The notes beneath the pieces are model-generated. The model saw only the letters and a program-made list of their open reading frames with translations, made no database searches and was not told where the DNA came from. 55,412 bases of DNA, taken from NCBI GenBank assembly GCA_016188575.1, contig JACPHN010000046.1, positions 1-55,412 on the forward strand, given 5' to 3'. Shown piece by piece: positions 5,376 to 50,861 of the stretch (position 1 is the stretch's first letter; each line of letters opens with the position of its first letter). Origin of the DNA: Candidatus Schekmanbacteria bacterium (GTDB lineage: Bacteria; CSSED10-310; JACPHN01). A program made the position numbers and the translations under genes.

Positions 5376-5465
5376 TCGGCCCCTCCCAATTCCGGGTACG
5401 CCACGGGGGATAATGCCTGTGGCTGACGCTTCGGGACCAGAATAGGCCAAAGCAAGCGCGCGCGG

Positions 5466-5488
5466 AAGTGCAAGCAAACGTTGCACTT
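5466..5488. promoter_or_regulatory. 8-bp perfect inverted repeat between divergent genes
   Basis: AAGTGCAA (5466-5473) and TTGCACTT (5481-5488) form a perfect inverted repeat with a 7-base spacer. It lies between the divergent histidine kinase and Nudix genes and looks like a dimeric regulator site. No regulator is identified. Confidence 0.4.
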
Positions 5489-5592
5489 TGGCTTCAAATG
5501 CTTGCTCCCCTCCCTGCCGGCGCGCTTGTCAGAGCACCCGCCGCGGTGGTACCTAGAGGGGAGCGCCCTGCCGCTCCAACCGGGATTTTGCC

Positions 5593-6090: not shown

Positions 6091-6138
6091 GCCTCCGCTC
6101 GTGGCCGCCCATTCAGCGCTACTGTTCACCTCCTGAAG

Positions 6139-6228
6139 CCACCGCCGGTGCGACTGCACGCTGTGCGCAAAGCGCATCACGAAGACCCGCCACCTCGACC
6201 CTCCCGCGCAAGCGGTGGCAGGGGGGTG
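6139..6228 (+). repeat. Dispersed intergenic repeat, copy A
   Basis: About 90 bases opening CCACCGCCGGTGCGACTGCA and continuing through GCGCATCACGAAGACCCGCC to a GC-rich inverted repeat. It is one of four related copies in this window (others at 23990, 29981 and 34620), all intergenic and in the same orientation. Confidence 0.65.
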
Positions 6229-6236
6229 AACAGATC

Positions 6237-9844: not shown

Positions 9845-10014
9845 CTGATTCTCCTGTTCTCCGGCCTGCTTTCGGCACAAGCTTGGACTATACCACTACG
9901 GGCGACGCAGGTGCCTGCCGGCGCACGCCGACCTGCGCCCGGTGCTCGTGGCGCCGACGCCGAGCGCGCCACCAGGACGACGAGGTCGCCGGTAGGATCG
10001 CAAATCCGACATGA

Positions 10015-10239
10015 CTACGGCGCCTCCCACAAACTGACTTGGGAGCGGCGAAATGGACCGACGTGAATGGCGCCGGTGGGACAATCGATTTCACAGCAGT
10101 AGCACGTTTGACAGTCATCCGGAAAGGCAATGACGGCCACGGGTGGGTGTGTCGCGGCGAGGCGCAGGACGTCGGTAGGACAGACGCGCACACAGGCGCC
10201 GCAGCCCGTGCAGGTTCCGATTTCAATGCGTGCGATCAA
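10015..10239 (-). CDS. 2[4Fe-4S] ferredoxin, partner of the flavoprotein
   Basis: 74 residues with two cluster motifs: CTGCGACVRVCP (residues 10-21) and CQTCYCCEIDCP. Both have the CxxCxxC-xxx-CP spacing of bacterial-type 2[4Fe-4S] ferredoxins, with an extra cysteine in the second. Its ATG lies 17 bases inside the end of the flavoprotein gene, so the two products are made together. The pairing resembles AprA/AprB or a fumarate-reductase-like flavoprotein with a detached iron-sulfur subunit: the ferredoxin would pass electrons to or from the FAD subunit. No membrane anchor subunit is seen nearby. Confidence 0.85.
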   Translation of the reverse strand: MIARIEIGTCTGCGACVRVCPTDVLRLAATHPPVAVIAFPDDCQTCYCCEIDCPTGAIHVGPFRRSQVSLWEAP

Positions 10240-25630: not shown

Positions 25631-28600
25631 TCATCGGTTGTCGCGCGCTCCAGGTAGCTCGCCATGAACCAGTAACCCGCCTGCCGCGAAGGTCATCTGG
25701 GCGGCCTCGAGCGCGGCAATCGAGGCGTTGATCGCCGCCTGCCGGGCGGCGTCAGAGTGGTGTGCCGCCGCGCTCTTCGCGGCGTCCAGGACCACGCCCG
25801 CGGTACGGCCCGCGGCGAGCTGCACGTGACCGAGCTCGCACAGGCAAAGCACGGCGGCGAGGAGGTCACCGTGTGCGAAGTTCCAGCCGGCCGCCTCCCG
25901 CAGCGCTGCCGCGAAGGTGTCAAGCGGTGCCCCAATCCGCCGTTCGAGCGCACACTGGTGCGGCAGGAGCATGGTTTCGAGCTGGCGCGCCCCGGTGCTT
26001 CGGTGCACCTGCATGGCCTGGTCAAACAGGCGCCTCGCCTCGTCCACCGTCCCTCGCTCGGCCAGCATCATTGCCAAGGAGCCGATGACGGCGGCCTCTC
26101 CGGAGCCATCCCCGATCGCCGCCCGCATTCGGCGCGCTCCTTCCAGCAGGTTCCGCGCGGCCGGCAGATCACCCAGCGACCTCTGGATCTCCGCAAGCTG
26201 CACCAGCGCTGTCGCCTGACCGGGGAGGTCGCCGATCTGCCGCCGGATCGCCAGCGCGCGCTCCCCGACCGCCAGCGCCTCCGCAGGCCGGTGCATCATG
26301 TTATTCATCATCGCCATCGATCCGAGCAAGTGCGCTTCTGCCTTTTTGTCCTCGAATTCGCGGTGAATTGTCAACGCCTCGGCGGCGATCTCGAGCGCGC
26401 GCGCACTCTCGCCCTGGTACCAATGGATCGCCACGAGATTGGACAGCACGCTCGCCACGAGCTGCCGGTTGTCGATGGCGCGCGCCCGTTCCAACGCGTG
26501 GCGCTGGATGTTGCCGGCCTGCCTGATTCTCCCCTGCGCGAACCGCGCGCCCGCGAGATTGCCCAGGGTGCGCACCTCGAGCCCAGGGTCGCCGATCCGT
26601 CGCAACAGCGTGAGCGCCTTGCATCCCGCACGCCAGGCCGCATCCTGCTGGCCGAGGCGCGACAGCACGAGGCTCCGTCCGCTCAGGGCCGCCCCGAGCG
26701 CCGCAATGTCACCGGCGGCGGTCGCCTCCGTAGCAGCGGCCCGAAGTTGTTCCAGCGCCTCCCGGAGCCGCCCAGTCCAGCGCAACACGCGATCCGCATA
26801 TTCGATGCGCACCAGCGGCGCTCCGGGAGGCACGGCCAGCGCCAGATCGAGGTACGCGCGATAGAGCGCTTCGGCATCCTCGAAGGCGTAGCGCGCCGTG
26901 GCCGTGCGCGCGCCGGCGAGGTAGTGGTGCCGCGCCTTTTCCGGATGGCCCGCGCGCTCCCAATGATGGCCGAGCTGGCCACCGAGCTCGGCGACGCGCT
27001 CGGGGAAGGCGCTCTCGATGGCGACGGCTACCAACCCGTGAAGCTCGGGGAGCCCGCGGCCGGGCAGCCTCGCGAGGATGGCCTCGCGGATCTTGTCATG
27101 TACGAAACGCACCTCGCCAGGTTCGACCGGCTCCAGAACGTCACGGGTCACCAGCACACCCAGCCCCTCGAAGAACGTCGCTTCGGGCAAGCCAGCGGCG
27201 CTCGCGAGGACCGCGACCGGATTGACCCGGCCGGCGACCGCCGCGATTTCGCTGAGCCGCGCTGCGGTCGCATCCAGTGGCGCGAGGCGCTTGCACACCA
27301 GGTCGTGCACCGTGTCGGGTTCCGGCAGGCGCTCGTAGTCGTCCACAGCGAGCTGCCAGCGCCCGTCCTTGCCGCGTGCGAGCACGCCCTCGGTAACCGC
27401 CATCCGCAGGTACTCCGCCACGAAGAATGGGTTTCCCTCCGCGTGGCGCCAAACGTATCGCATGAACGCCGCGGGCGGATCGGCCATCGCCAGCATGTCG
27501 CAGACCATGCGCAACACGTCGCTCTCCGTGAGCCTACCGAGGTCCACGAGCACTACCTCCCCACGCCTCGCCAGGCGAATGAGCGTCTCCGTGGCCTCCT
27601 CGGTGCGATAGGCGCACAACAGAATCAGCGCGGTTTCGGCCATGACGGAGCTCTCGACTGCGTGGCCGAGCCATCCGAGTGTGAGCTCGTCGGCCCACTG
27701 CAAATCGTCGAGCGTCACGAGCAGGACCCCTGTCGAAGCCGCAGTCGCAAGGACCTCGTCGAGTGCCGAGAAGAGCCGAAGTCGAGCTGCTGCCGGGGGG
27801 AGCTCGACAGCGTCTGGATAGCGGTTGGCGCCCGGCACCTCGCGGAGAGAGGGCTCGTAGGCCGCAAGCAGGCTCAGGCGGGCACCAAAGAGGCGATCCG
27901 TCTCGCCTGCGCCGCATTCCCGGCAGCGATCTCCGAGCCATCGCAGCGGCTTCAGCAGCGCTTGTAGCGGCGGCTGATGCGACCGCTCGTCACCATCTGA
28001 CCGGGCCACCGGCGGCAAACATTCACCGCTGACGACGGCAATGTCGCGACTCGCCGCCAGGCGCGCGGCCTCCAACAGAAATCGGGTCTTCCCAAGGCCG
28101 CTCTCGCCGGCCACGAAGATCGTCTTCCCCACCATCTCGAAGGCATGCTGCAGCGCCCCGTCGGCCACCGCCATGACCTCGCCGCGGCCGGCGAAAGACG
28201 GCCGGTAATGGTAGGGACGAGGCGCCGGGCTATCGGCAGGCCAGAGAGCCTCCGCGCCAAGCTCTCGGAGCACCGCAGCGGCGTCGTCGGCATAGCCGAT
28301 GCGCTCGCCTGGGGCCTTGGCGGGCAGGCGCGCGACGAGCTGCTCGAGCGCCGCCGGCACCCCGTCCACGCGACTTCCAAGTGGAGCGGGCGCTTCGGCC
28401 AGGTGACCGTGCAGTATCGCCATCGGCTCGCTGGAGGCGAAGGGTGGCGCGCCGGCGAGCGCCTCGTACAGCATGCAGCCGAGGGCGTACAGATCGGCGC
28501 GCGCGTCGACGAGCTCGCCCGCGATTTGCTCGGGAGACATGTACGCCAGGGTGCCGCCGGAAAAGACGCCATCGACGGTGAGCTCGCGGCCGACTCCTCC

Positions 28601-29257
28601 GGCGAAGCTCGCGGACAGGCCGAAGTCGACGAGGATGGGCCTGCCTGAGGTGTCGACGAGGATGTTATCGGGCTTGAGGTCCCGGTGGACGATGCCTTCG
28701 CCGTGAATGTAGCGCAGCGTCAGGCAGAGGCGGTGAAAAATGGGCAAGAGCAGCTCGAGAAAGCACCGCGGTAGAAACGCGCGCGGCATCGAGGCGTGGG
28801 GCTGGCCGACATCGCCCACGACCGGCGGCGGCGCTCCATGCGCCACCGGCCGTGCCGGGACGGCGGCGAGGACCGTCGATGTGGCCGAAGTCACCGGCCC
28901 GTGAGAGGCGTGCGGCGGCGCGGCGCGACTCGCCCACAGGCCGGCGATCGTCGCCCCGAGTGGCCGGCCTGCGATCAAGTCCATGGCGAACCATGGAATG
29001 CCGCCAGCGCTCCCCGTGTCGCGGATGCGCACCACGCCCGGATGGCGCAGACCGCTCAGCGAAGCAATCTCTCGCCGTATCGTCGGAAGCAGCTCCGCGG
29101 TCGCTGACTTGAGAAACTTGAGCGCGACGAGGCTGCCGCTGGCCGCGTGACGTGCGCGAAACACTTGCGCCATGCCACCCTGTCCCAGCAAGACCTCGAT
29201 GACGTACGGGCCGACGCGGAATCCGCGCGCCGCCTCCCTGCCGAGCGTTCGCGTCAC
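25631..29257 (-). CDS. Ser/Thr kinase - P-loop ATPase - TPR regulator (PknK-like)
   Basis: 1208 residues, three parts. Kinase (about 15-335): G-loop 'LLGQGGMAQVF', Lys in 'LVALKFLKS', 'IVHRDLKPDNIL', 'VDFGLSASF' and 'GTLAYMSPEQIAG'. An Ala/Pro-rich insert of about 60 residues sits after the hinge. ATPase (about 375-640): Walker A 'VAGESGLGKTRFLLEAA', Walker B-like 'VLLVTLDDLQWADELTL'. The rest (about 720-1190) is tetratricopeptide-type helical repeats, e.g. 'LRRIGDPGLEVRTLGNLAGA'. The plan matches mycobacterial PknK and related kinase/AAA/TPR regulators of Myxococcota. No helix-turn-helix or membrane span is seen at the C-terminus, so it is a cytosolic kinase with a STAND-type switch. Ligand and substrates are unknown. 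It is monocistronic. Confidence 0.9.
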   Translation of the reverse strand: MTRTLGREAARGFRVGPYVIEVLLGQGGMAQVFRARHAASGSLVALKFLKSATAELLPTIRREIASLSGLRHPGVVRIRDTGSAGGIPWFAMDLIAGRPLGATIAGLWASRAAPPHASHGPVTSATSTVLAAVPARPVAHGAPPPVVGDVGQPHASMPRAFLPRCFLELLLPIFHRLCLTLRYIHGEGIVHRDLKPDNILVDTSGRPILVDFGLSASFAGGVGRELTVDGVFSGGTLAYMSPEQIAGELVDARADLYALGCMLYEALAGAPPFASSEPMAILHGHLAEAPAPLGSRVDGVPAALEQLVARLPAKAPGERIGYADDAAAVLRELGAEALWPADSPAPRPYHYRPSFAGRGEVMAVADGALQHAFEMVGKTIFVAGESGLGKTRFLLEAARLAASRDIAVVSGECLPPVARSDGDERSHQPPLQALLKPLRWLGDRCRECGAGETDRLFGARLSLLAAYEPSLREVPGANRYPDAVELPPAAARLRLFSALDEVLATAASTGVLLVTLDDLQWADELTLGWLGHAVESSVMAETALILLCAYRTEEATETLIRLARRGEVVLVDLGRLTESDVLRMVCDMLAMADPPAAFMRYVWRHAEGNPFFVAEYLRMAVTEGVLARGKDGRWQLAVDDYERLPEPDTVHDLVCKRLAPLDATAARLSEIAAVAGRVNPVAVLASAAGLPEATFFEGLGVLVTRDVLEPVEPGEVRFVHDKIREAILARLPGRGLPELHGLVAVAIESAFPERVAELGGQLGHHWERAGHPEKARHHYLAGARTATARYAFEDAEALYRAYLDLALAVPPGAPLVRIEYADRVLRWTGRLREALEQLRAAATEATAAGDIAALGAALSGRSLVLSRLGQQDAAWRAGCKALTLLRRIGDPGLEVRTLGNLAGARFAQGRIRQAGNIQRHALERARAIDNRQLVASVLSNLVAIHWYQGESARALEIAAEALTIHREFEDKKAEAHLLGSMAMMNNMMHRPAEALAVGERALAIRRQIGDLPGQATALVQLAEIQRSLGDLPAARNLLEGARRMRAAIGDGSGEAAVIGSLAMMLAERGTVDEARRLFDQAMQVHRSTGARQLETMLLPHQCALERRIGAPLDTFAAALREAAGWNFAHGDLLAAVLCLCELGHVQLAAGRTAGVVLDAAKSAAAHHSDAARQAAINASIAALEAAQMTFAAGGLLVHGELPGARDNR

Positions 29258-34859: not shown

Positions 34860-35687
34860 ATGGCAGTTACCCGCGCACGAAGGAGACGCTCGATGTGGAT
34901 CGCCGGACTCGTTTTTCTGTTGGCTGGCGCCGGCCTGGGGATCGCCTTTTTCACTCAGAAGAGCAAGCTCGGGCTCATGGAGGGGACCGAGACGTCTACG
35001 GCTGCCGAGCTTCAACAGATGGCCGCTTCGGTGGGCAGCGAGATCGGCAAGGGTGCGTTCAGCCAGATGACGGAAATCAAGGGGACCGTGGTATGCGACG
35101 CCCCGCTGACCTCGGAGCTCGCGCAGGTTCCCTGCGTGCACTACGAGAACCGGGTGATTCGCGAGTACGACGAAACCTATTGGGATACGGACGCCAACGG
35201 CAACCGGATGCAGCGCACCCGGCGAGGCAGCGATACGGTTGCGCACAACGCCCGGCACGTGTTTTTCGCCGTCGACGACGGGACGGGGCGGATCACGGTG
35301 GACGCCGCGGGCGCCAAGCTGGTGACGGAGAAGGCGCTGTCGACATTCGAGCCTGGCGAGGCGCACGGCGGCGTGTTGCGGCTCGGCTCATTCAGTCTGA
35401 GCCTCGGCGGCCTCAGCTTCGGCAGCGGCCGGCGCACCCTGGGCTATCGCTACGAGGAAGATGTGATCCCGGTTGGCAGGCCGGTCTACGTGCTCGGCGA
35501 GGCCACGGATCGAAACGGCAGCCTGCGCATCTGTCGGCCTGCTGATTCAGGTAAGATGATCGTTAGCGTCAAGAGTGAAGAAGAGCTCGTGCGCGGCGCG
35601 CAGCGGACGATGACCTGGCTCATGATCAGCGCGATTGCGAGCGCGGCGCTGGGAGCGGTGCTGCTGGTGGTCGGGCTGCTCACGTAG
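34860..35687 (+). CDS. GIDE-domain (E3-ligase-like) membrane protein
   Basis: 275 residues. An N-terminal span 'MWIAGLVFLLAGAGLGIAFF' (about 12-31), an extracytoplasmic or cytoplasmic core and a C-terminal span pair 'WLMISAIASAALGAVLLVVG'. The core has 'IKGTVVCDAPLTSELAQVPC' and 'VHYENRVIREYDETYWDTD', then 'FFAVDDGTGRITVDAAGAKL', with 'FGSGRRTLGYRYEEDVIPVG' and 'RPVYVLGEATDRNG'. This is the pattern of the GIDE domain (PF12483), found in mitochondrial MULAN E3 ligases and in bacteria, where no RING finger accompanies it and the function is unknown. No RING is seen here either. Its last bases overlap the end of the convergent kinase gene by 8 bases. Confidence 0.78.
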   Translation: MAVTRARRRRSMWIAGLVFLLAGAGLGIAFFTQKSKLGLMEGTETSTAAELQQMAASVGSEIGKGAFSQMTEIKGTVVCDAPLTSELAQVPCVHYENRVIREYDETYWDTDANGNRMQRTRRGSDTVAHNARHVFFAVDDGTGRITVDAAGAKLVTEKALSTFEPGEAHGGVLRLGSFSLSLGGLSFGSGRRTLGYRYEEDVIPVGRPVYVLGEATDRNGSLRICRPADSGKMIVSVKSEEELVRGAQRTMTWLMISAIASAALGAVLLVVGLLT

Positions 35688-37239
35688 CTCGTTGGATGCG
35701 GCCGAGCACCTGCCGGGCCAGGAGCGCGATCTGCGCGTCGGGGTCGGCCAACGCCGCCTGCAGGCCGACAAGCTCCAAGTCGGGCGGATAGATCCGGAAT
35801 GCGACCAGGGCGCGCAACGCGCGCAGTCGGGCGACGCCCTTGGCCTGGCCGAGGAGGTGGGCGATGGCGGCGGCGCCGCGCGGATCACCAATGCTCGCGA
35901 GCGGCTCGATCGCGAGCGCGGCCTGGGGGGAAGATGATTCGGCCAGGGCCACGAGGCGCGGGACCGCGGCGCTCGAGGCGAGCTTTCCGAGTGCCCTGGC
36001 GGCCTCGCCGCACAGCAATGGATCGTCGAGCGCGGACTCCAGAAACGGCAGGGCGTCGGCGCTCCCGAGCGCGCCGAGCACCGGAATCGCGGCGAGGCGG
36101 GCATCGCCGCCTGCGGCAGTCAGAAACGCCAGGAGCTCCGGGAGCACGCGCTCGGCGGCAAGACTCTCCAGCGCGCGCGCTGCCTGCAGGCGACGCGTCC
36201 CAACGGCCGATTGCAACCCGGCAAGGAGCTCCTGCACGCGCCCATCGGCACCGCCAGCGACGCCTGCCGCCGCGGCCGGTTCCCGGCTGGGCAGGCAAAC
36301 CGCGTCGCTGACGGTCAGCGACGTGCGCGGCCGCGCCTCCCCGCCCGCCGGTTCCTTCCGTGGCAGCCGGCGCAACAGGTCCTGAAACCGCCGGGCGTCC
36401 AGCCGCAGCAAGTCCTCCCGGAGCTGCTCGGCACTGGCATAACGCCGATCCAGGCGCACCTCCAGACAGCGCAGAATGACGGCCTCGAGGTCCGCGGGGA
36501 AGGCCGGGATCAGCTCCGACGGCGGGTGAAATCGGCCGACGGGGCGGCTGCCGGTGAAGGCCGCATACATCACGGCACCGAGGCTGTACAGATCCGTTCG
36601 ATGGTCGATGTGCTTGGCGTCCATTTGCTGCTCGGGGCTCATGTAAGAAAGCGTGCCCATCGACTGGCCGGACCGCGTCAGCTCCTCACCGTGCTCGAAC
36701 GTCAGCCGGCTGATGCCGAAGTCGGTGAGGTACACGAACGGCCCGTAGGGGGGTGCGGGCGCCCGGCCGATCAGCAGGTTGGACGGCTTGATGTCGCGAT
36801 GGATGACGCCGTAGTGGTGCGCGTAGGAGAGCGCCTCACACGTCTGCGCGAAAACCTCCATGAGCCCCGCCGGGCGGGCGGCGCGACTGGCCATATACCG
36901 GCTCAGGTCGCCGTCCTCCACGTAGGGAAGCACCAGATACGGGAATCCCTGGACGACACCCTCCGCGAGCAACGGGAGGATGTGCGGGTGGTTCAGTTGC
37001 TTCATGATTCTGGCTTCGCGCCGAAACCGGAGGAGGAGATCGGCGGCGGCGAGCGCTCCAGGCGTCAGCAGCTTGATGACCACCTGCTTGCCCAAGGCCG
37101 CGGCGCGGGCGAGGTAAATCTCCGACATGCCGCCGACCGCCAGCAGCCGCGTGACCTCGAAGGGCCCCAGGGCCAGTGGCGGGGTAAGCGCCGACTGGTG
37201 TGCTGTTGCCGCGTCGCCACCCAGCGGGCTGCGATTCAA
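35680..37239 (-). CDS. Ser/Thr protein kinase with C-terminal HEAT-like repeats
   Basis: 519 residues from a TTG at 37237-37239 that overlaps the aroA stop (TTGA), with GAGGAG five bases upstream. Kinase domain (about 20-300): 'LLAVGGMSEIYLARAAALGK' (G-loop, with the first Gly replaced by Ala), Lys in 'QVVIKLL', 'GVIHRDIKPSNLL', 'LTDFGISRL' and 'GTLSYMSPEQQMD'. After a linker (about 325-360), seven or so short HEAT/PBS-type repeats run to the end: 'ARLAAIPVLGALGSADALPF', 'LGKLASSAAVPRLVALAESS'. There is no membrane span, so it is a cytosolic kinase with a protein-binding tail. It is last in a four-gene operon with aroA, which invites regulation of aromatic synthesis by phosphorylation (inference). 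Confidence 0.87.
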   Translation of the reverse strand: MNRSPLGGDAATAHQSALTPPLALGPFEVTRLLAVGGMSEIYLARAAALGKQVVIKLLTPGALAAADLLLRFRREARIMKQLNHPHILPLLAEGVVQGFPYLVLPYVEDGDLSRYMASRAARPAGLMEVFAQTCEALSYAHHYGVIHRDIKPSNLLIGRAPAPPYGPFVYLTDFGISRLTFEHGEELTRSGQSMGTLSYMSPEQQMDAKHIDHRTDLYSLGAVMYAAFTGSRPVGRFHPPSELIPAFPADLEAVILRCLEVRLDRRYASAEQLREDLLRLDARRFQDLLRRLPRKEPAGGEARPRTSLTVSDAVCLPSREPAAAAGVAGGADGRVQELLAGLQSAVGTRRLQAARALESLAAERVLPELLAFLTAAGGDARLAAIPVLGALGSADALPFLESALDDPLLCGEAARALGKLASSAAVPRLVALAESSSPQAALAIEPLASIGDPRGAAAIAHLLGQAKGVARLRALRALVAFRIYPPDLELVGLQAALADPDAQIALLARQVLGRIQRAT

Positions 37240-38660
37240 CGCAGCTCCTCCAGCACCGAAAAGAAGCCGGGAAACGACACGTCGACGGCGCCAGAGTCGA
37301 CAATCGCCGTCTCGCCCTCCGCGACGAGGCCGGCAATGGCCATGCACATCGCGATGCGGTGGTCGCCAAAACTGTTGACTGCCGCCCCGGTGAGCTGCTG
37401 CGGTCCGCTGATCTCGAAGCCATCCTCGAGCTGCGTCACCTCGGCGCCGAGCGCCTCGAGCCCCGCGCTGATCGTGGCGATGCGGTCGCTCTCCTTGTAG
37501 CGAAGCTCCCGGGCACCGCGTGCCACGGTCTTGCCGTGCGCTTGCGTCGCCAGCACCGCCAGCAGTGGAATCTCGTCGATCATCGCCGCGCACTCGGCGG
37601 GCCCGAGCGCGATGCCGGCCAGGTCGGCGGCGGTAACCGCGATCGTGCCCGTGGGCTCCGAAGAGGGTCCCGTCGCCTGGTCGCAGAGCGGAGCGCTCGC
37701 GCTTTCCGGCGGCCTCGAGGTGGCGTCAGGGGTCAGAAGCACGCGCGCCCCCATCGCCGCCAGGGCGTCCGCAAACGCCGTCCGGGTGGGGTTGAGGCCG
37801 ACGCCTGCAATCTCGATCGCTGAACCCGGGACGATCGCGGCCGCCGCCATGAGGAACGCCGCCGAGGAGAAGTCCCCGGGCACCCGGATGTCAACAGGGT
37901 GCAGATGGGCCCCGGGGTAGGCGACGACCAGCGAGCCGGACCGCTCGATGCGGGCGCCCATGGGCACCAGAGCGCGCTCGGTGTGATCCCGACAGGACGC
38001 CGTCTCGGTGAGCTCGACCGGCGCGGGGGCGCACAGACCGGCCAGCAGGAGCGCGGACTTGACCTGCGCGCTGAACACCTGGTAGGGAGCGGGCAGCGGT
38101 CGAGTAAGCGGGCCGCGAATCGCCAGAGGAGGCGTGCCTCCGCCACTGGCCATCCAGGTTGCACCCATGGCCCCCAGGGGGTCGAGAACGCGGCGCATCG
38201 GCCGGCGCCGCAGCGAGGCGTCACCGGTCAAGAATGCGGCGACCGGCAGCGCCGCGAGAATTCCCAGACCGAGTCGCATCGTGGTACCCGAATTCCCGCA
38301 ATCGAGAAGATCAGCAACGGGCCCCAGGTTCCACGAGGCGTTGGCGCTGCCGGAGGCGCCGGTCTCCCGCGCTCCCTGGCCAGTGACGACGACGTCCGCG
38401 GTGGCGATCCCGGTTTCCCGGATCTCCACCGCCGCCCCCAGAGCACGCACGAATGCGACCGAGCTCAACGTATCGGCGGCCACCAGGAAATTGGCTATGC
38501 GGCTCGGCCCCTGCGCCAGCGCACCAAATAACACGGCGCGATGCGAGATGGACTTGTCCGGGGGTACCGCGAGCCGCGCTCGCACGGGTGCCCGCGCGCA
38601 GCGGACGCGCCGGGCGGCTGCAGCAGCGAGATCGGGAAACGAGTTGTCGTTGGTGGTCAT
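37236..38660 (-). CDS. aroA: 3-phosphoshikimate 1-carboxyvinyltransferase (EPSP synthase)
   Basis: 474 residues, about 45 longer than usual. AroA makes EPSP from shikimate-3-phosphate and PEP in the cytoplasm. 'VPPDKSISHRAVLFGALAQG' (PEP/S3P Lys and Arg region), 'DCGNSGTTMRLGLGILAALP' (S3P binding), 'GDASLRRRPMRRVLDPLGAM', 'SAQVKSALLLAGLCA' and 'RYKESDRIATISAGLEALGA' are all intact. An insert of about 35 residues ('TSRPPESASAPLCDQATGPS') sits before the conserved 'IDEIPLLAVLATQA'. ATG 38658-38660; the AroF-like gene ends 10 bases upstream. It is coupled to the kinase gene downstream by a TTGA overlap. Confidence 0.95.
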   Translation of the reverse strand: MTTNDNSFPDLAAAAARRVRCARAPVRARLAVPPDKSISHRAVLFGALAQGPSRIANFLVAADTLSSVAFVRALGAAVEIRETGIATADVVVTGQGARETGASGSANASWNLGPVADLLDCGNSGTTMRLGLGILAALPVAAFLTGDASLRRRPMRRVLDPLGAMGATWMASGGGTPPLAIRGPLTRPLPAPYQVFSAQVKSALLLAGLCAPAPVELTETASCRDHTERALVPMGARIERSGSLVVAYPGAHLHPVDIRVPGDFSSAAFLMAAAAIVPGSAIEIAGVGLNPTRTAFADALAAMGARVLLTPDATSRPPESASAPLCDQATGPSSEPTGTIAVTAADLAGIALGPAECAAMIDEIPLLAVLATQAHGKTVARGARELRYKESDRIATISAGLEALGAEVTQLEDGFEISGPQQLTGAAVNSFGDHRIAMCMAIAGLVAEGETAIVDSGAVDVSFPGFFSVLEELR

Positions 38661-41880: not shown

Positions 41881-42068
41881 CTACGCAATCTCCGGAACGC
41901 CCAGACGGCGACAGATCTTCTGGGCGAGCCGGTTCGATATTTCTCCATGCCGTGGCACCGCTTCGACCGCGCCATTCGCGGGATTACACCACAATGAATG
42001 GGACGCGCCCTCGCGCTTCAGGTAGCACCCGGCTTCCGCAGGTGCCGAAGGAGTTGGCCGCGCTTCAC
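41881..42068 (-). pseudogene. hicA: HicA toxin with a frameshift
   Basis: Starting at a GTG that overlaps the hicB stop (GTGA), the first frame reads 'VKRGQLLRHLR', the normal HicA N-terminus. About base 42037 the frame must shift by one to give 'EAGCYLKREGASHSLWCNP' and 'AVEAVPRHGEISNRLAQKIC', ending 'RRLGVPEIA' at a TAG. The double-stranded-RNA-binding-like fold with catalytic His in 'GASHSLW' is otherwise complete. HicA cuts mRNA when free of HicB. As written the toxin cannot be made in one frame, so it is inactivated unless this is a sequencing error or a programmed shift. The stop is two bases before the attC R'' box. Confidence 0.75.
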
Positions 42069-42280
42069 TCGACAGTGACCGTCTCGCGCTCGGCCTCGGG
42101 TGGAAGCCCGCGGAGGGCATCATCGCGCCGATCGTCGAGAATGAGGCGGATCGCGTCGGCAAGACTGGCGCGCGCTTCTTCCTTTGTACGTCCCTGGCCA
42201 TTGGCCCCCGGGACTTCAGGGCAGTACGCGACAAACCAGACGCCGTCACGCTCGAAGACGGCCGTGAACTCGTTTCGCAT
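42065..42280 (-). CDS. hicB: HicB-family antitoxin
   Basis: 71 residues: 'MRNEFTAVFERDGVWFVAYC', 'PEVPGANGQGRTKEEARASL' and 'ADAIRLILDDRRDDALRGLP'. This is the short (UPF0150) HicB fold, which blocks HicA by direct binding. The usual C-terminal DNA-binding segment is missing, so it may not autoregulate. Gene order hicB then hicA with GTGA overlap is one of the known arrangements. It is the gene nearest the integrase relic, in the first-cassette position of an integron layout. No obvious ribosome site precedes the ATG. Confidence 0.82.
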   Translation of the reverse strand: MRNEFTAVFERDGVWFVAYCPEVPGANGQGRTKEEARASLADAIRLILDDRRDDALRGLPPEAERETVTVE

Positions 42281-42669: not shown

Positions 42670-43275
42670 ATGACTGAAGCGGGCGACCCCTTGCCGGCCG
42701 TTCCGGATGGACACGCCAGCATCTTCGCGAGCGGCAACTGGCTCCGCCCAAGCAGCAGTCATTCCTGGTGCGTTGGGTACGCGAGCTCCTGGGTTTCGCG
42801 CGGGAGCACCGCGGATACACCTTCGAGCAGACGCTGGATGCCTCCCTGGCCGCACTGGGCGATCGGGCCGGCACGGAGCCCTGGCAGATCCGCCAGGCCG
42901 CGGACGCGGTTTGCACCTACCGCTATCAATACCGTGCGGCGGGGGAGCCCGCGCAGCCCAGCGCTCCCAGGTTGACTGACGGAGCTGCACTGGCCGACGA
43001 CCAAAGCCTGCTCCGGCGCCTGCGCGAAGTGATCCGGCTGCGGCACTATGCGTGGGCCACCGAGAAGCATGTCGGGATTGGTCGCGCCGTTTCTTGGAGG
43101 ATCGCCAGCAGACCGGCCTGAGCGGCCGGCCGACCACAGCCGACGTCAAGGCCTTTCTCACCCGCCTGGCGATGGTGCAGCGGGTAAGTGCTTCGACCCA
43201 GAACCAGGCGTTCAGCGCCTTGCTGCTCCTCTTCCGCGAGGTGCTGCGGACGGACTTGGCGGAGCAGGTTTCCCG
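42670..43275 (+). pseudogene. Integron-type integrase (IntI-like), N-terminal relic
   Basis: An ATG with GGGAGGG upstream opens 'MTEAGDPLPAVPDG'. One frame over it continues 'WTRQHLRERQLAPPKQQSFL' and 'VRWVRELLGFAREHRG', 'EPWQIRQAADAVCTYRYQYR', then 'LLRRLREVIRLRHYAWATEK'. After a second shift near 43070 it reads 'DWSRRFLED', 'TADVKAFLTRLAM' and 'SASTQNQAFSALLLLFREVL'. The last parts match the SAM-like core-binding domain of IntI/XerC-type tyrosine recombinases, and 'STQNQALSALLFLYREVL' is almost the family consensus. The catalytic domain with Arg-His-Arg-Tyr is absent: the relic runs into the promoter of the next gene. It is divergent from the attC-bearing cassettes, as intI is in integrons. 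Confidence 0.78.
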
Positions 43276-43280
43276 CTCAA

Positions 43281-43309
43281 TTGACAGCAGCCGAGCCCGT
43301 AACTATGCT
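43281..43309 (+). promoter_or_regulatory. Promoter of the propeller-kinase gene, near-leaderless
   Basis: TTGACA (43281-43286), a 17-base spacer and TATGCT (43304-43309). The ATG at 43316 starts six bases after the -10, where transcription itself should begin, and no ribosome site is seen. It lies inside the end of the integrase relic. Confidence 0.6.
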
Positions 43310-43315
43310 GCCGCA

Positions 43316-46300
43316 ATGCTTCAGCGTAGGATCGCTTCCCTCCTGCTCCCGGCGATGGTGTCGCTCGTCCTCGCCGGGCAACCGTCCGTGGCGCCGGTAT
43401 GCGCCGATGGGAAGCCAGCACAGTCCGAAGATCTGGCGCCCCTCGCGCGACTCCAGAGTTGGGCCCCGACCGTGTCCGAGCGCCTCACCCGAGCCGTGCG
43501 CGAGGCCGAGGGCGCCGACCTACAGGCCAGAGCCGCTCACCTCCAGCAAGTCCTCGAATCCACGACACTCTCGGCGGGCGAACGCGCCGCCGGGTTGTGG
43601 ACGCTGGCGCGATGGCATCGGCGACTGGGCGAGCTGGAAGCGGCGGTGCTGGCCTACAGGGCCGCCTTTGCCGCGATTTCCGCGGCCTCGGGGAGCCGGG
43701 AGGTGCCGGCGCGCAATGATTTCGCTCTGGCACTGCTGACCGAGACTATCGGCGTCCTTCATAGCGAGCTCGGCCGTGTCGACGACAGCATCACGCTCAT
43801 CCCGGAGGCCATGTTGCTGGCCCCGCGGAGCGGCTCGGAGACGTGGCAGGAGCGTCTGCGAGCGTGGCTGCATCAGTCTCACGAGCTCTTCGCGAGAGAA
43901 CGCGTCACCAGGCTCCGCGAACGCTTCCGCTTCTCGACCTTCACAACGACCGACGGATTGTGCGATCCCAACATCATGCGGCTCATGCTTGACCGCGCGG
44001 CGGGATTGTGGATCGGCAGCAGTCAGGGTCTGTGTCGCTTTGACGGCGTGGCGTTCACGCCAGTGCCGGTGGGCGCACAAGGGGACAGGGCGACGGTGTG
44101 GGCGCTCGCGGAAGACGCGTCGGGGAGAATCTGGGTAGGGCTGAGCTCGGGACTGCGCGTCGTCGACCGCGGGCGCGTCGTCCGAGCTCCCGGCACCGAG
44201 GCGCTCGCGAGCGCCGCAGTCCGCGCCCTGGCCGTTGCCCCTGACGGCGCGGTGTGGATCGGGAGCAAGGGCGGCATTGTCCAGGTGTACCGAGACGGGA
44301 ATCTGCAAACGCTGGCGGCTGCAGGACACGGGGAGATCGAGGCAATCCACGCCCAGGCCGACGGCGTCGTCTGGCTCGTGGCGGCGGAGGGACTCGGGCG
44401 CTGGAGTGCCGATTCCCCGCTCGAGTGGTGGTCTCCTCCTGCCTGTCCGGCGCTGCCAGGCGCGACGGCAACAGACAACAAGCTTGCGGCGGCCACGAGC
44501 GGGCCGGAAGAATCCGGCGAGCTGTGGCTGGGCACGAGCTGCGGGGTGTGGCGATTCCGCGCCGGGGCGTGGACAAGGCCGCTGTGGGCCGAGCAGCTAC
44601 CGGAAGGAGCGTCCCTCAGCGCGCTGACAGTCGATCGCGCCGGGAACCTGTGGATCGGCTACGAGGCTGCGGGGCTCTTCATGGTCGAGGGAACGCGAGT
44701 GACGCCGCTTGGCGAGGCCGAGGGCCTCGGCCGTAACAACGTGCAGTCCGTGGTCGACGATGGCCGGGGGCGCCTCTGGATCGGCACGTTCGGCGGGGGG
44801 CTGAGCCGCTATGAGCCGTCACGCGCCCGCATTTTCCGCCGCACCAGCGGGCTACCGCACGACGTCACCTATGCGGTTCGCCTCGATCGCTCGGGGCAGT
44901 TGTGGGTGGGCACATGGGGCGGCGGAGTAGCGCGCTTCGACGGCCGCGCCTTTCGCTACTATGGTCAGGAGCAGGGTCTGGCCGATAACCTCGTCTGCCG
45001 CATTCTCGAGGACCACCTCGGAAACATCTGGTTTGGGACATTCGCCGGGGGCGCCAGCCGCTTTGACGGCCGCCGCTGGGAGCATATTGACAGCAAGCGC
45101 GGGATCACGGACAACTTCGTGGCGGCGATTCATGAGGACAGGTCCGGCCGTTTCTGGTTCGGCACGTGGCGGGGGGGAGTTTGCCGCCTTGACGAGCCCG
45201 CGGGCAAGGTGGCCTGCTTTCAGCAGGAAGCGGGGCTCCTGGCCGAGCAAGTCCTGGGGATTGCCGAAGCAGAGGATCGCCGCCTGTTCTTCGCCACCGA
45301 TCACGGGATCTTCACCCTGGAGCCGACACCCGGCGCGCGCTTCACCCGACTTGGTCACGATGACGGGGTGCCGGCGGAGAGTTTCCTCGGGCTTCTTGTG
45401 GACACCGGGGGCGCGGGCGGTCAAGCCGACGACGTGTGGATGGGGAGCACGAGCAATCGCCTGTATCGCTATCGGCGCACGGCCAGGTCGGGCGAGCGCC
45501 TGGCAAGCTGGGGAAAGTCGGAGGGGATGCGTGCGCACGAGATCACTGAGATCCAGAGAGGCCCGCGCGATCTGCTTTGGGTAGCATCAGACGCGGGCGT
45601 CGGGATTTTCGATGGCGAAACGTGGTCCTGGTTGGACGAGGAAGATGGCCTCGCTCACCGGCAGACGTGGTCGCTAGCCTTCGCGCGGGCGCGGGAGCAG
45701 GCGCGGCCGGCGGCCGACGTCGCCTGGATCGCGACGTCCGGGGGACTCACCCGCATCGAGCTGCCACCGGACACCCCAAAGACCCGCATCGCTCTGGCGC
45801 CAGCGGGGGAGGAAAGCCTCACGCCGGTGACGATCAGCGATGCGGAGATCACGCTCGCGGTCGAGGCCCGCACTCCGTGGGTTCATCCCAGGCGGGACAG
45901 CTTCTGGTTTTCCGCGCGCGTCGACAGCGGTCCGTGGGGCGCGTGGCAGGCAGAGCCGAATCTGGCGCTGCCACTGCTCGCGCGCGGGCTCCACACTGTC
46001 GAGGTCCGCGCGAAGAACCGATACCTGGCGGTGGACGCCTCACCGGCGCGCATCGTGGTGGACGTCCAGCCCGCCAGGCCATACTGGCCGTGGCTCGCTG
46101 TCGTCGCGGTCGCACTGGCACTCGCGCGGCAGTATCGAGAAACGCTTCGCTTCGCGCTCGAACGGGCGCTGGTGGCGGTCCTGCGGGGGCGCCGGTTCGC
46201 GCCGGTCCCGGAGGGGCGGTTCTGGACCCGAGCGCTTCCGGCCGGTGATGCGCCGATCCTGATTCGTGGCGACGTCACCGAGACGCTGCACCGCGAGCTC

Positions 46301-48304
46301 GCGCGGTCGGCGACGGAAGGCGCGAGCCTGCTGCTGTACGGAGAGCTCGGGTGCGGCAAGAGCACGCTCCTGCGACTGCTTGCCGCGGGCCGGCTACACC
46401 CACCCGGGATGATGGTGCAACCACTGTGTGTCGACCTGTCCGCAGATCCTACAGCGGCCGCGATCCTGCAGGAGGTCCTGGAGCGCCTTTCTGGGGCTCT
46501 GGAGGAGGCGCCTCCGGAGCCCGGCGCCGCGGCCACTGCGGACGCCGAAAGCTCGTCGGCGGACTCGAGCGCGCTCCAGAGGCTCTTCATGGCCCGCTTC
46601 CAGGAGCTGCGCGGACGGCTGCCGGCCCCCGGCGGGTCGCGCGCGGTGATTCTGCTCGATGCCGCCGAGCGGTCGACGGCACTGATGGGGCCATTGCCCG
46701 GCAAGCGGTCGATCGGCGACATCGCGCCTTTCGTGGCCTGCCTGCGCGCGCTGCTCGCGGCCGGAGTGTCGCTCGTCTTCGCGTTCGACCGGCACCGGGA
46801 TGCGCTGCGGGCGGACTTCGCGGAGCTCTATTCGATCTCGACGCCGGTGCGGGTCGGATTCGTCGCGGAGCCTGAGGCTACAGACTTCTTGCTGCGCGCA
46901 ACCCATCGACATCTGGTCTGGGAAGCGAAGGCGATGCGCCTGGCCGTACAGTTGAGCGGCGGTCATGCCGGACTGCTGCAGGAGCTCGGCCAGCGAATCG
47001 CGCGCGCTCACAATCGCCTGGCGACCCCGCTGGTCCGCTATCGACAGCTCCAGAGCATCGCGGACGACCTCGCAGAAGCGCCGCCACCCCGCCTCGAGGA
47101 GCTCGGCGCCAGCCTGGCGAACCGCGAACGCGTGCTCGTGTCGCTCATCGCCGCGGCCTTGCGGCGCGCGTCGCCTGCGGCGGCCTGGGAGCCGACCGCG
47201 GCGATCCCGCTGCGAGACGTCCAGGCGGAAGCGGAAAAACACCATGTGCCGTTGCTCTATGAGGAGATCCGCAAGGTCACCCTGAGCCTGACGCAGCGAG
47301 GCTTGCTGTTCGCCGGCGCTGGCGGAGAGTCCGTCGGCGTCCGCGTCGGGCTCCTGCTCAAGTGGATGCAAACCGCCTGTCCGCCGGAACGGACGATCCA
47401 CGAGCAAAACCGCTACATCGGCAAGTACGAGCTCATGGGAGTACTTGGCAAGGGGGGAATGGGCACCGTGTATCGGGCTCGGGACCTGACGACGCTGAGC
47501 GAGGTCGCGCTCAAGGTCATGCCGCCGGAGTTCGGGGACGACCCCACCCGGCGGGCGCGCTTTATCCGCGAGGGGCGGATCGGCGTCAACCTCAGCCATC
47601 GCAACATCGTCGGCATCCGCGAGCGGGGCGAGCACGACGGGACCTACTACCTGGCCATGGAGCTCCTCGACGGGGTGACGCTGGAGGCCCTCGCGGGGTG
47701 GTATGCGCGCGAACGCAGGCGGCCCGGCACGGAGTTGCTCGCCATCGTCGGCTGCGAAGTCGCGCGCGCGTTGGCGGCCATCCACGGCCGGGGGGTCATC
47801 CATCGCGACGTGAAAGGCGAGAACGTCATGGTGACGAGTCTCGGCGAGGTGAAGCTGATGGACTTCGGGCTGGCGATCGCCAGCGACCTGGGCAAGGTTA
47901 CGACCTCAGGGGTGGCCGTGGGGACGATCGCCACGATGTCGCCGGAGCAGGCGCGAGGGGAAGAGGTTGACGGCCGCAGCGACCTGTACTCGCTGGGCGT
48001 CGTGCTGTTTCAGCTCGCAACCGGGCAACACCCGCTCGGGGATGAATCCGGCATGAAGCTGCTGCTCGCCGTGCTGCGGGCACCGGCCCGGCCGCTCGGG
48101 GAGCTGCGGGAGGATCTTCCCCAGGCGTTCACCGCGGTGATCGACCGGATGCTTTCGAAGGACAGGGAGCAGCGCCCGGCGTCGGCTGCGGCGGTGCTCC
48201 AGGAGCTCACGGCGTTTTCCCCGCAGTCGCCCGAGGGTCCGCGCCGGGAGCTTGTGGAGGCGACAGCGGCAATTGTCGCTCTGTCCGCCCGGCAGGACGG
48301 CTAG
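43316..48304 (+). CDS. Receptor kinase: periplasmic propeller, Y_Y_Y, membrane span, P-loop ATPase, Ser/Thr kinase
   Basis: 1662 residues. A signal peptide ('ASLLLPAMVSLVLAGQPSVA', about 6-25) and a helical, TPR-like region (to about 215) precede some ten two-component-regulator propeller repeats (about 220-790), such as 'LWIGTFGGGLSRYEPSRARI', 'LWVGTWGGGVARFDGRAFRY' and 'IWFGTFAGGASRFDGRRW'. A Y_Y_Y-like Ig domain (about 826-918, 'FWFSARVDSGPWGAWQAEP') and one span 'YWPWLAVVAVALALA' (about 921-937) follow. In the cytoplasm an ATPase has Walker A 'GELGCGKSTLLRLLAA' (about 1009) and B 'AVILLDAAERS'. The C-terminal kinase (about 1370-1640) has 'LGKGGMGTVYRA', 'VALKVM', 'VIHRDVKGENVM', 'MDFGLAI' and 'TMSPEQARG'. 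Propeller/Y_Y_Y sensors usually drive histidine kinases, so this Ser/Thr output is unusual. A longer frame upstream belongs to the integrase relic. Confidence 0.88.
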   Translation: MLQRRIASLLLPAMVSLVLAGQPSVAPVCADGKPAQSEDLAPLARLQSWAPTVSERLTRAVREAEGADLQARAAHLQQVLESTTLSAGERAAGLWTLARWHRRLGELEAAVLAYRAAFAAISAASGSREVPARNDFALALLTETIGVLHSELGRVDDSITLIPEAMLLAPRSGSETWQERLRAWLHQSHELFARERVTRLRERFRFSTFTTTDGLCDPNIMRLMLDRAAGLWIGSSQGLCRFDGVAFTPVPVGAQGDRATVWALAEDASGRIWVGLSSGLRVVDRGRVVRAPGTEALASAAVRALAVAPDGAVWIGSKGGIVQVYRDGNLQTLAAAGHGEIEAIHAQADGVVWLVAAEGLGRWSADSPLEWWSPPACPALPGATATDNKLAAATSGPEESGELWLGTSCGVWRFRAGAWTRPLWAEQLPEGASLSALTVDRAGNLWIGYEAAGLFMVEGTRVTPLGEAEGLGRNNVQSVVDDGRGRLWIGTFGGGLSRYEPSRARIFRRTSGLPHDVTYAVRLDRSGQLWVGTWGGGVARFDGRAFRYYGQEQGLADNLVCRILEDHLGNIWFGTFAGGASRFDGRRWEHIDSKRGITDNFVAAIHEDRSGRFWFGTWRGGVCRLDEPAGKVACFQQEAGLLAEQVLGIAEAEDRRLFFATDHGIFTLEPTPGARFTRLGHDDGVPAESFLGLLVDTGGAGGQADDVWMGSTSNRLYRYRRTARSGERLASWGKSEGMRAHEITEIQRGPRDLLWVASDAGVGIFDGETWSWLDEEDGLAHRQTWSLAFARAREQARPAADVAWIATSGGLTRIELPPDTPKTRIALAPAGEESLTPVTISDAEITLAVEARTPWVHPRRDSFWFSARVDSGPWGAWQAEPNLALPLLARGLHTVEVRAKNRYLAVDASPARIVVDVQPARPYWPWLAVVAVALALARQYRETLRFALERALVAVLRGRRFAPVPEGRFWTRALPAGDAPILIRGDVTETLHRELARSATEGASLLLYGELGCGKSTLLRLLAAGRLHPPGMMVQPLCVDLSADPTAAAILQEVLERLSGALEEAPPEPGAAATADAESSSADSSALQRLFMARFQELRGRLPAPGGSRAVILLDAAERSTALMGPLPGKRSIGDIAPFVACLRALLAAGVSLVFAFDRHRDALRADFAELYSISTPVRVGFVAEPEATDFLLRATHRHLVWEAKAMRLAVQLSGGHAGLLQELGQRIARAHNRLATPLVRYRQLQSIADDLAEAPPPRLEELGASLANRERVLVSLIAAALRRASPAAAWEPTAAIPLRDVQAEAEKHHVPLLYEEIRKVTLSLTQRGLLFAGAGGESVGVRVGLLLKWMQTACPPERTIHEQNRYIGKYELMGVLGKGGMGTVYRARDLTTLSEVALKVMPPEFGDDPTRRARFIREGRIGVNLSHRNIVGIRERGEHDGTYYLAMELLDGVTLEALAGWYARERRRPGTELLAIVGCEVARALAAIHGRGVIHRDVKGENVMVTSLGEVKLMDFGLAIASDLGKVTTSGVAVGTIATMSPEQARGEEVDGRSDLYSLGVVLFQLATGQHPLGDESGMKLLLAVLRAPARPLGELREDLPQAFTAVIDRMLSKDREQRPASAAAVLQELTAFSPQSPEGPRRELVEATAAIVALSARQDG

Positions 48305-48377: not shown

Positions 48378-50861
48378 ATGAACGAGATCCGCGGCAAAGA
48401 TGCCGAGAGGAAGCGGCGCAGGCGGGCGCGCGTGGGGCGATGGGCGGTTCTCGCGCTCGTGCTCGCGCTCGCGACGGCAGCCGCGGCAGTTCGGGACGCG
48501 CGCGCTCAGCCGCCGAGCGCGCCTACGGGGCAGCCTGCGCCGGCCGCTTCTCCCGTTCCCACTGAGCGGCTGGCGGACCTTTTTCCGCAGGCCGCGGAGC
48601 TGTCGCGGTTGGCCAGCGACCTGGATCTTGCGATTGCGACCCTCACGGCCACGGCCGACTTGGGTGCAGGCATCGATCGGTTAGGCGCGCAGCTCGGCGA
48701 GCTGCAGCGGCGGGTTCGCGAGCCGGGGCCGGGGGACGCGGACGCGCTCGAGCAACTCAACGACCTGCGCGGAGAACGCGGCGCCCTCGAAACGCGCCGA
48801 AAGGAAATCGGCGCGGCGCTGGCGGCGCGCCTCGAGCGGCTCGAGGCGCTGCGTGACGAATGGCGAGAACAGCAACAGCGCTGGAAGCAGTGGGAGCGCG
48901 TCGCAGGCGAAGCGGACGCGCCTGGCGAGGCCCGGGAGGCCGTCCGCGGGGCGCGGGCTCGGATTGCTCAGAGTCTCGAGCGCATCGCCGGAGGCTACTA
49001 TCCGCTCATCGCGCTGCAAACGCGGCTCGCAGGCATCGAGGAGCTGGAAGCGGCGGTCCACCGAGAGCTCGATCGCCTGACCGCGGCAGTGCGCAGCAGC
49101 CTTTTTCAGGCGAGCTCGCCACTGCTCGTGTCCTGGGGTTTTCTCGCGGAGCTGCGGGCGTTGGACGCCAGCGCTTTGGTCGCCGGCGCGCCGGCCATCG
49201 GGGAGCTTCGGGAAGCGCTCACCCCGCCGCGCGCGCTGGTGCTCGGGGTCCAGGTGTTGCTGGCGCTCGTGCTGGCGTTGAACCTTCGTCGGCGCCGCAG
49301 GCAAGCGAGCCCAACGGCGCGCGCAGAGGGTTCCCTACGCCGGCCGCTGTCGGCGGCGACATTGCTGGTCCTGGTGGCGTTCTCTCCCCTCTACCAGACC
49401 GCTCCGGCGCCGCTGACTCTGGTGCTGTGGGCGCTGGCCATCGCGAGCTCGATGCGGCTGCTGCCGGGGCAGTTGCGCGCCGCGTGGCAGGTCCGGATTC
49501 TGGCGGGCGTCGGGGTCCTGTTCCTGGCATCGGTGCCGATGCGACTGCTCGGTCTGCCGCGCCCTCTGTTCCGCCTCTACGTCTTCGCCGCGGGGCTTGC
49601 CGGCGGCGTCGCCCTCGCGATGCTGGCGCGGCGGCTCCGCGGTGCCACCGGCTGGCGGCGGCTCCGGCCGCTGCTCGCCGCCGCTGCCGCGTCCGGGCTG
49701 CTGCTCGCGGCCGCCGCCGAGCTGTCGGGGCTCGACATCCTTGCCGTTCACGTCTTTGAAGCGTCGGCAAAAACGTGCTTCCTCTTTCTGTTTGCGCGCC
49801 TCGTGTCGGGACTGCTTCACCGGGGCCTGCACCTGCTGATGGCGAGCCGCCTCACGGAATGGAGCGCCGCCGTCGCCAGTCATCGGGCGGTCATCGCGGA
49901 GAGCATCGGTGTCGTCGGCGGCGTCGTGGTGTATGGCGTGGCGGGGCTCGTGGCGCTGCAGACGTGGGGCCTGTTCGACTCTCCCTGGCACGCGTGGCGG
50001 AGCTTGACGAGCATGGGGATCTCCGCCGGCGGTCTCGAGCTCACGACTGGCCGCCTGTTCGCGCTGGCCGCGCTCCTGCACGCCGTTCGGCTGGCCAGCC
50101 GCGCCGTCCACGCGCTGTTCGTCGACGAGATTATCCCCAAGCGCGGCATCGACCCCGGCGTGGGGCACTCCGCGGCCCGCCTCCTGCAGTACTGCCTCAT
50201 CGCCGCGGCCTCGGTCCTCGCGCTGCAAATCCTCGGAACCGATTTCCGCGGATTCGCGCTCGTGGGCGGAGCACTCGGTGTCGGCATTGGCTTCGGGCTG
50301 CAAAATATCGTCAACAACTTCGTGAGCGGGCTCATCTTGCTCGTGGAGCGACCCATCGAAGTGGGGGACGTGATTCGCGTCGGGGATCAGTGGGGGACAG
50401 TGCAGTCGCTCGGCCTGCGCGCCACCGTGCTCATGACCTTCGACCGAAGCGAGCTGATCGTGCCGAACTCCGAGCTCATCTCCGGACCCGTGGTCAACTG
50501 GACGCTCACGGACCGGACGGCGCGCCTCGCCGTCATGGTCAGCGTCGCGTACGGCAGCGACGTGGCGGCGGTGATGCGTTTGCTGCTCGAGGTGGCCCGA
50601 GACGACGTGCGCGTTGCCACCGATCCGGAGCCGACGATCGTGTTCAAGGACTTCCGGGAAAGCAGCCTCGACTTCGAGGTGCGGGTCGTCGTGCGCGACA
50701 TCGACGACCGCCTGAGCGTCGAGTCGGACCTGCGCTGCCGGCTCTACGAGCGCCTGCAGGCGGCCGGCGTCGTCATCCCGTTCCCGCGGCGCGACATTCG
50801 CATCGTGGAGGATGCGCCGCGACCGCACCAGGACCCGGATCGGGGTGGGGGTCGGCCATGA
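48378..50861 (+). CDS. Large MscS-family mechanosensitive channel
   Basis: 827 residues. Signal-like start 'RRARVGRWAVLALVLALATA', then a periplasmic coiled-coil domain (about 60-270, e.g. 'RGALETRRKEIGAALAARLE'), about ten hydrophobic segments (from 'LVLGVQVLLALVLALNL' on), the pore helix 'ALVGGALGVGIGFGLQNIVN' with 'NFVSGLILLVERPIEVGDVI', the beta domain 'RVGDQWGTVQSLGLRATVLM' and 'IVPNSELISGPVVNWTLTD', and the cytoplasmic cage to the end. This is the MscK/MscM-like layout of osmotic release channels. The ATG at 48378 lies 73 bases after the receptor-kinase stop. The last bases overlap nth (ATGA). Confidence 0.9.
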   Translation: MNEIRGKDAERKRRRRARVGRWAVLALVLALATAAAAVRDARAQPPSAPTGQPAPAASPVPTERLADLFPQAAELSRLASDLDLAIATLTATADLGAGIDRLGAQLGELQRRVREPGPGDADALEQLNDLRGERGALETRRKEIGAALAARLERLEALRDEWREQQQRWKQWERVAGEADAPGEAREAVRGARARIAQSLERIAGGYYPLIALQTRLAGIEELEAAVHRELDRLTAAVRSSLFQASSPLLVSWGFLAELRALDASALVAGAPAIGELREALTPPRALVLGVQVLLALVLALNLRRRRRQASPTARAEGSLRRPLSAATLLVLVAFSPLYQTAPAPLTLVLWALAIASSMRLLPGQLRAAWQVRILAGVGVLFLASVPMRLLGLPRPLFRLYVFAAGLAGGVALAMLARRLRGATGWRRLRPLLAAAAASGLLLAAAAELSGLDILAVHVFEASAKTCFLFLFARLVSGLLHRGLHLLMASRLTEWSAAVASHRAVIAESIGVVGGVVVYGVAGLVALQTWGLFDSPWHAWRSLTSMGISAGGLELTTGRLFALAALLHAVRLASRAVHALFVDEIIPKRGIDPGVGHSAARLLQYCLIAAASVLALQILGTDFRGFALVGGALGVGIGFGLQNIVNNFVSGLILLVERPIEVGDVIRVGDQWGTVQSLGLRATVLMTFDRSELIVPNSELISGPVVNWTLTDRTARLAVMVSVAYGSDVAAVMRLLLEVARDDVRVATDPEPTIVFKDFRESSLDFEVRVVVRDIDDRLSVESDLRCRLYERLQAAGVVIPFPRRDIRIVEDAPRPHQDPDRGGGRP

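Follow-up and report, generated by a model that had tools for sequence, protein, structure and literature searches.

Propeller sensors of the glycan type are mainly known to feed into histidine kinases; STAND proteins are mainly known as intracellular switches of immunity and cell death. In cyanobacteria, a Ser/Thr kinase and a histidine kinase are reportedly joined in one protein, HstK. The Bacteroides hybrid two-component sensors (HTCS) BT4663 and BT3049 have a periplasmic double seven-bladed Reg_prop propeller and a Y_Y_Y domain in one chain across the membrane (PMC3243724).

The window analysed here, a stretch of 55,412 nucleotides from a Candidatus Schekmanbacteria genome, encodes a receptor kinase (43316..48304, + strand) which shares with the HTCS the double seven-bladed Reg_prop propeller, the single membrane-crossing chain and, judged by fold and alignment, probably the Y_Y_Y domain, but is devoid of histidine kinase, receiver and AraC parts and has as its output a Ser/Thr kinase preceded by a STAND domain. 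It resembles PknB and StkP in its complete kinase domain and single-span receptor layout; unlike these, it has the kinase at the C-terminus and the sensor at the N-terminus, no PASTA repeats, and a STAND domain between span and kinase. With the STAND NTPases (nSTAND1/nSTAND2, NACHT) it has a P-loop with an AAA_16 match and a C-terminal helical part in common, however fused behind a membrane sensor and with no acidic residue adjacent to the Walker B Asp. In contrast to HstK it has no histidine kinase. A PknK-like protein encoded in the same window (25631-29257, - strand; Pkinase, AAA_16 and TPR repeats) also combines a Ser/Thr kinase and AAA_16 in one chain, but there the kinase comes first, and the protein is soluble, has a TPR sensor and contains neither propeller nor span. 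In the literature covered, which included few subscription journals, no paper describes a Reg_prop/Y_Y_Y sensor combined with either a Ser/Thr kinase or a STAND domain. The propeller-STAND-kinase layout recurs in distant bacteria, in one chain or as two neighbouring genes, and apparently represents an undescribed kind of receptor. We consider it probable that the protein is a ligand-gated, single-chain transmembrane Ser/Thr kinase into which a STAND relay has been fused, whose gating, signal direction and targets we infer.

The gene and the sensor half

The reading frame starts with ATG at 43316 and continues to 48304 without internal stop (1662 aa). The third-position GC content is even over its whole length (about 0.8-0.9). 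Pfam assigns Reg_prop (104.6 bits), AAA_16 (37.8 bits) and Pkinase (140.4 bits) to the protein, but neither a histidine kinase (HisKA/HATPase) nor a receiver. The order of the domains is signal peptide, helical TPR-like stretch, two seven-bladed Reg_prop propellers, Y_Y_Y-like domain, membrane span, STAND/AAA_16 domain and Ser/Thr kinase. The original prediction of a propeller sensor, one span, a P-loop ATPase-like domain and a complete Ser/Thr kinase in one chain is borne out, and the ATPase segment, which is above the Pfam cut-off, and the kinase segment indeed belong to the families named.

Directly upstream lies what is left of the N-terminal domain of a phage/integron-type integrase, broken by a frameshift (42678-43118 and 43052-43315, + strand; Phage_int_SAM_4, 45.5 bits); its second frame leads straight into the receptor gene. 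Further upstream there is a weak match to a HicA toxin, below cut-off (41881-42249, - strand). An MscK/MscS-type mechanosensitive channel is encoded 74 bp downstream (48378-50861, + strand) and is possibly co-transcribed with the receptor gene. As no channel gene was found in the examined neighbourhoods of the relatives, we do not claim a functional tie between the two.

A signal peptide (residues 1-30, 43316..43405) is predicted from hydrophobic residues 6-24 behind a basic start. It is followed by a putative helical, TPR-like stretch (residues 31-200, 43406..43915) with sub-threshold TPR matches (E 0.003). The alignment with one of the relatives described below (L186) begins inside this stretch, at residue 94, and BLASTP of the stretch against another (L184) gave no match.

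The two Reg_prop propellers (about residues 202-511, 43919..44848, and 512-820, 44849..45775) are defined by Pfam, a structural model and structural alignment. The AlphaFold model of the sensor, built with 45 relatives, reaches a mean pLDDT of 86 and comprises 14 four-stranded blades, i.e. two seven-bladed propellers instead of the about ten blades assumed before, and then a seven-stranded domain. In Foldseek and VIA-align searches BT4663, BT4673 and BT3049 rank at or near the top with their periplasmic domains, BT4663 being the best match, and the HTCS sensors 3v9f and 4a2l also rank high in a PDB sequence search with the propeller. Model residues 8-725 align to residues 28-783 of 4a2l (Z 34, VIA-align), and the match to 4a2l/4a2m (BT4663) and 3v9f (BT3049) covers almost the full length, through the Y_Y_Y-like domain. 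The assignment as HTCS-type sensor therefore holds.

The Y_Y_Y-like beta-sandwich (about residues 822-918, 45779..46069) is a less simple case, since Pfam does not recognize it even if the segment is searched alone at E up to 10. The fold of the model, the alignment with 4a2l and sequence alignments with relatives as well as with the Y_Y_Y domains which Pfam does recognize in three other proteins from this genome nevertheless suggest that the domain after blade 14 is probably of the Y_Y_Y type, as predicted. The membrane span (about residues 922-938, 46079..46129) was located by hydropathy; it is weakly hydrophobic (17-residue mean 1.31), whereas the homologues have clear spans at the same place (1.72-2.25).

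The same genome encodes three ordinary Reg_prop-Y_Y_Y-HisKA-HATPase-REC proteins on the contigs C94, C249 and C206, and an HTCS sensor was therefore available for swapping. Judged by its sequence, the receptor is an output variant of the HTCS-sensor proteins within its own genome.

The STAND domain and the kinase

Residues 950-1366 (46163..47413) comprise a STAND/AAA_16-type P-loop domain with its C-terminal helical part. The AAA_16 match covers residues 983-1119 and lies above the cut-off of 32.6 bits, and the P-loop NTPase motifs are present with the Walker A sequence GELGCGKST (residues 1009-1017, 46340..46366) and the LLD of Walker B (AVILLDAAE, residues 1110-1118, 46643..46669). Against a profile of the ATPases of gene A, a split relative described below, which was built without the receptor sequence, hhalign aligned 346 columns with a probability of 98.4% (E 4.7e-15). 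A direct comparison with nSTAND2 aligned only the P-loop (6.9%), so that the kinship to nSTAND2 runs via gene A only. A single-sequence model of the domain alone reached a pLDDT of 38.6 and was left out of the fold searches. In a search of 60 broad genomes with the P-loop domain only a short P-loop match was found outside its own gene.

The STAND-like nature of the segment thus stands, supported by AAA_16 and the homology to gene A, but that it is an active ATPase is doubtful. The acidic residue for hydrolysis beside the Walker B Asp is absent, since Ala replaces the Glu of the DEYE motif (LLDAAE in comparison to LIDEYE in gene A), and an acidic residue remains at +3. The STAND domains of the gene A type all (15/15) contain GERR/GDRR-xGK(S/T)S and DEYE. 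Five single-chain relatives from Myxococcota show GK(H/Q/R)S together with DNAE or SSAE, the Walker A Ser/Thr being replaced in each of the five. As far as the motifs tell, canonical Walker residues are lost in the fused forms, and hydrolysis is likely lost in the STAND domain of the receptor. With Walker motifs altered in the single-chain forms, ATP hydrolysis by this part is doubtful, and with Walker B altered the domain may not work as a classical nucleotide switch. In NACHT-type STANDs, however, the Walker B Asp is likewise followed by a small residue, with an acidic one further on (PMC7583971), and hence the DAAE of the receptor need not be dead.

The kinase domain (residues 1371-1626, 47426..48193) has PknB as its first PDB sequence match, and StkP is also among the best. 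Gly loop, Lys, HRD, Asn and DFG are all present, the catalytic loop HRDVKGEN (residues 1496-1503, 47801..47824) and the DFG (residues 1516-1518, 47861..47869) both in invariant columns. The domain is accordingly classified as a Hanks-type Ser/Thr kinase with predicted activity. Its position at the C-terminus and that of the STAND-like domain between span and kinase, as originally described, agree with the Pfam positions and hhalign. In the kinase tree it groups with the kinases of the five Myxococcota proteins (SH-aLRT 91; 47% identity).

Fused and split relatives

A search of 195 genomes of the Myxococcus xanthus phylum with the STAND profile revealed five ORFs, four of them about 2200 aa long and the fifth truncated by a contig end. 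In two of them (L184 and L187) Pfam found, in this order, Reg_prop, AAA_16, Pkinase, GAF, HisKA and HATPase. According to HMMER, L185 and L186 likewise combine propeller, STAND, Ser/Thr kinase, GAF and histidine kinase; L186 is matched along its length and L183 partially. At least four of the five match the receptor along sensor, STAND and kinase, and none of the six chains has lost any of the length of the STAND domain, its C-terminal part included. Residues 434-1631 of the receptor and L187 form one unbroken alignment over about 1200 residues (27% identity, E 6e-92), with identities of about 30% in the Y_Y_Y, about 25% in the STAND and 47% in the kinase part. Y_Y_Y, span, STAND and kinase align co-linearly with the single-chain relatives at 32-34% identity. 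The search for the same architecture elsewhere was thus successful, and the alignments indicate that the propeller-STAND-kinase layout is common to two phyla. At a strict cut-off, with two candidates scored per genome, neither the phylum of the source nor a set of 386 broad genomes yielded a further member.

The Myxococcota relatives have a GAF-histidine-kinase tail which is not found in the receptor. In L184-L187 a Ser/Thr kinase and a histidine kinase are both located on one receptor chain. This combination of Ser/Thr kinase, GAF and histidine kinase resembles HstK, in contrast to which the Myxococcota proteins have an extracellular propeller sensor and a kinase placed after a STAND domain.

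In genomes of the Acidobacteriota phylum the STAND segment of the receptor, used alone as query, was matched over the whole domain by ORFs of 1300-1400 aa (best E 5.7e-8). These proteins (gene A) consist of Reg_prop, Y_Y_Y, span and STAND. A second protein of 656-687 aa (gene B) contains nSTAND2 and Pkinase, the kinase being present in 10/10 gene B ORFs checked, and the STAND domains of A and B are related to each other with 99.6% probability. Gene B adjoins gene A in L153, L154 and L156 and is two genes away in L158; in L182 and L164 it is found in the vicinity of an ATPase receptor which has no propeller. Of the 15 genomes that encode A or a membrane STAND resembling it (A'), 14 have gene B, in comparison to two of 15 other genomes, one of which (G076) contains an A-like ORF of 1409 aa beside B. 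Fisher's test gave p 2e-5 for this co-occurrence (2e-6 with G076 moved), values which are only indicative for genomes that are not random and not corrected for relatedness. A strict search of 396 Acidobacteriota-phylum genomes found no single-chain forms among the two candidates scored per genome. For nSTAND2, a search of the source genome yielded no match with a tool whose controls were empty too; an alignment-based search detects nSTAND2 in other genomes.

The receptor is therefore a member of a wider family, which occurs either as two co-occurring genes or as one chain, with or without a GAF-histidine-kinase tail. A splitting of the frame in related genomes had been named as a sign of an assembly artefact. 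It is indeed split there, but the halves are the conserved, co-occurring genes A and B, which argues for a functional module.

Two variants of the split form were observed. In L162-L167 the A-like STAND is preceded by membrane segments with several spans where gene A has propellers, in L164 with an nSTAND2-kinase gene upstream. In L188 an N6 DNA methylase with a type I specificity-like domain is fused to an A-type STAND (6406-10722, - strand), and an nSTAND2-like protein follows (4814-6565, - strand). This pair is possibly a defence system with a restriction-type front end.

Propellers and Ser/Thr kinases are also joined without a STAND domain. A whole-protein scan of the named genomes, whose patterns came solely from the least conserved parts, gave no match, while a search with the sensor alignment yielded 80 named loci. 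Four ORFs among these carry a C-terminal Ser/Thr kinase: two from Blastocatellia SSF51, one from MAG-301 and one from Aminicenantes PFL21. All four contain Reg_prop, Y_Y_Y and Pkinase according to Pfam, and none an AAA domain. The view that this output of a propeller/Y_Y_Y sensor is unprecedented is hence not supported. In the kinase tree the Aminicenantes kinase is found beside the receptor group and the Blastocatellia and MAG-301 kinases elsewhere; this scatter suggests that propellers and kinases were probably joined more than once. The Blastocatellia SSF51 genome (G060) contains a large expansion of full-length propeller-Y_Y_Y-Ser/Thr kinase chains.

Proposed mode of action and alternatives

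For the ligand-gated receptor with a STAND relay, which we prefer, the following course can be proposed. The extracellular double propeller and Y_Y_Y domain would bind a ligand, which is the expected trigger in analogy to the glycan binding of the HTCS (PMC3243724, PMC3404733). A change in the Y_Y_Y pair might then pass through the single span to the P-loop domain, which may act as nucleotide-binding relay or assembly platform and, in analogy to STAND proteins, would bring the kinase domains together in the cytoplasm. The Hanks-type kinase, with its catalytic residues in place, would autophosphorylate and phosphorylate cytosolic proteins. With its drifted Walker motifs the single-chain STAND probably serves binding or structural coupling more than ATP turnover. 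As a tentative extension, the receptor STANDs of gene A could, in several phyla, recruit the kinase-linked STANDs of gene B, the two forming mixed oligomers at the membrane which would activate the kinases in the manner of an apoptosome; in the one-chain versions of the receptor and of Myxococcota the nucleotide step would have become dispensable through the fusion. The family would be a distinct bacterial route from an outside stimulus via STAND to Ser/Thr phosphorylation, in split and fused forms, and the contrast between intact Walker motifs in the former and altered ones in the latter makes the role of nucleotide turnover by STAND testable.

It is a serious possibility, if one we hold with roughly one chance in three, that the protein is an ordinary receptor Ser/Thr kinase whose P-loop domain, a pseudo-ATPase, has become a mere spacer without a part in switching, while span and Y_Y_Y pair directly set the dimerisation of the kinase, in the way of the propeller-kinases devoid of STAND. 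The Ala in Walker B of the receptor, the replaced Walker A Ser/Thr of the five Myxococcota chains and the intact propeller-Y_Y_Y-kinase proteins without any STAND all fit such a spacer; against it, 6/6 chains retain the entire domain including its C-terminal part, the Walker A motif of the receptor is canonical, and NACHT-type STANDs are similar at Walker B (PMC7583971).

An involvement in conflict or self/non-self recognition, where a foreign envelope polymer would activate a STAND-linked kinase and a defence or death response, is unlikely. In its favour, bacterial conflict systems are described in which STAND NTPases have kinases as effectors (PMC8195603), the A-type STAND behind the restriction-type methylase of L188 lies beside an nSTAND2-like protein, and the integrase remnant lies directly upstream of the receptor gene. 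However, PADLOC found no system beyond generic kinase matches, there are no effector or nuclease neighbours, and the HTCS-type sensors of known ligand sense glycans (PMC3243724, PMC3404733). The PD-T4-6 and mad6 defence-kinase matches cover the kinase domain only, and we do not assign the receptor to a defence system on this basis.

That an HTCS-like gene and an unrelated kinase gene were brought together by misassembly or by a frameshift, for which the metagenome-like draft of 275 contigs and the decayed integrase abutting the 5' end could be quoted, is rejected as highly improbable, because frame and codon bias are continuous, the layout recurs in other genomes and residues 434-1631 align without a break to L187 from another phylum.

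A further Ser/Thr kinase, followed by HEAT repeats, is encoded in the window at 35680-37593 (- strand). The source genome (9.2 Mb) yielded 172 query matches, nearly all of them kinase domains and many on frames of about 1200-1400 aa; its load of Ser/Thr kinases is extreme.
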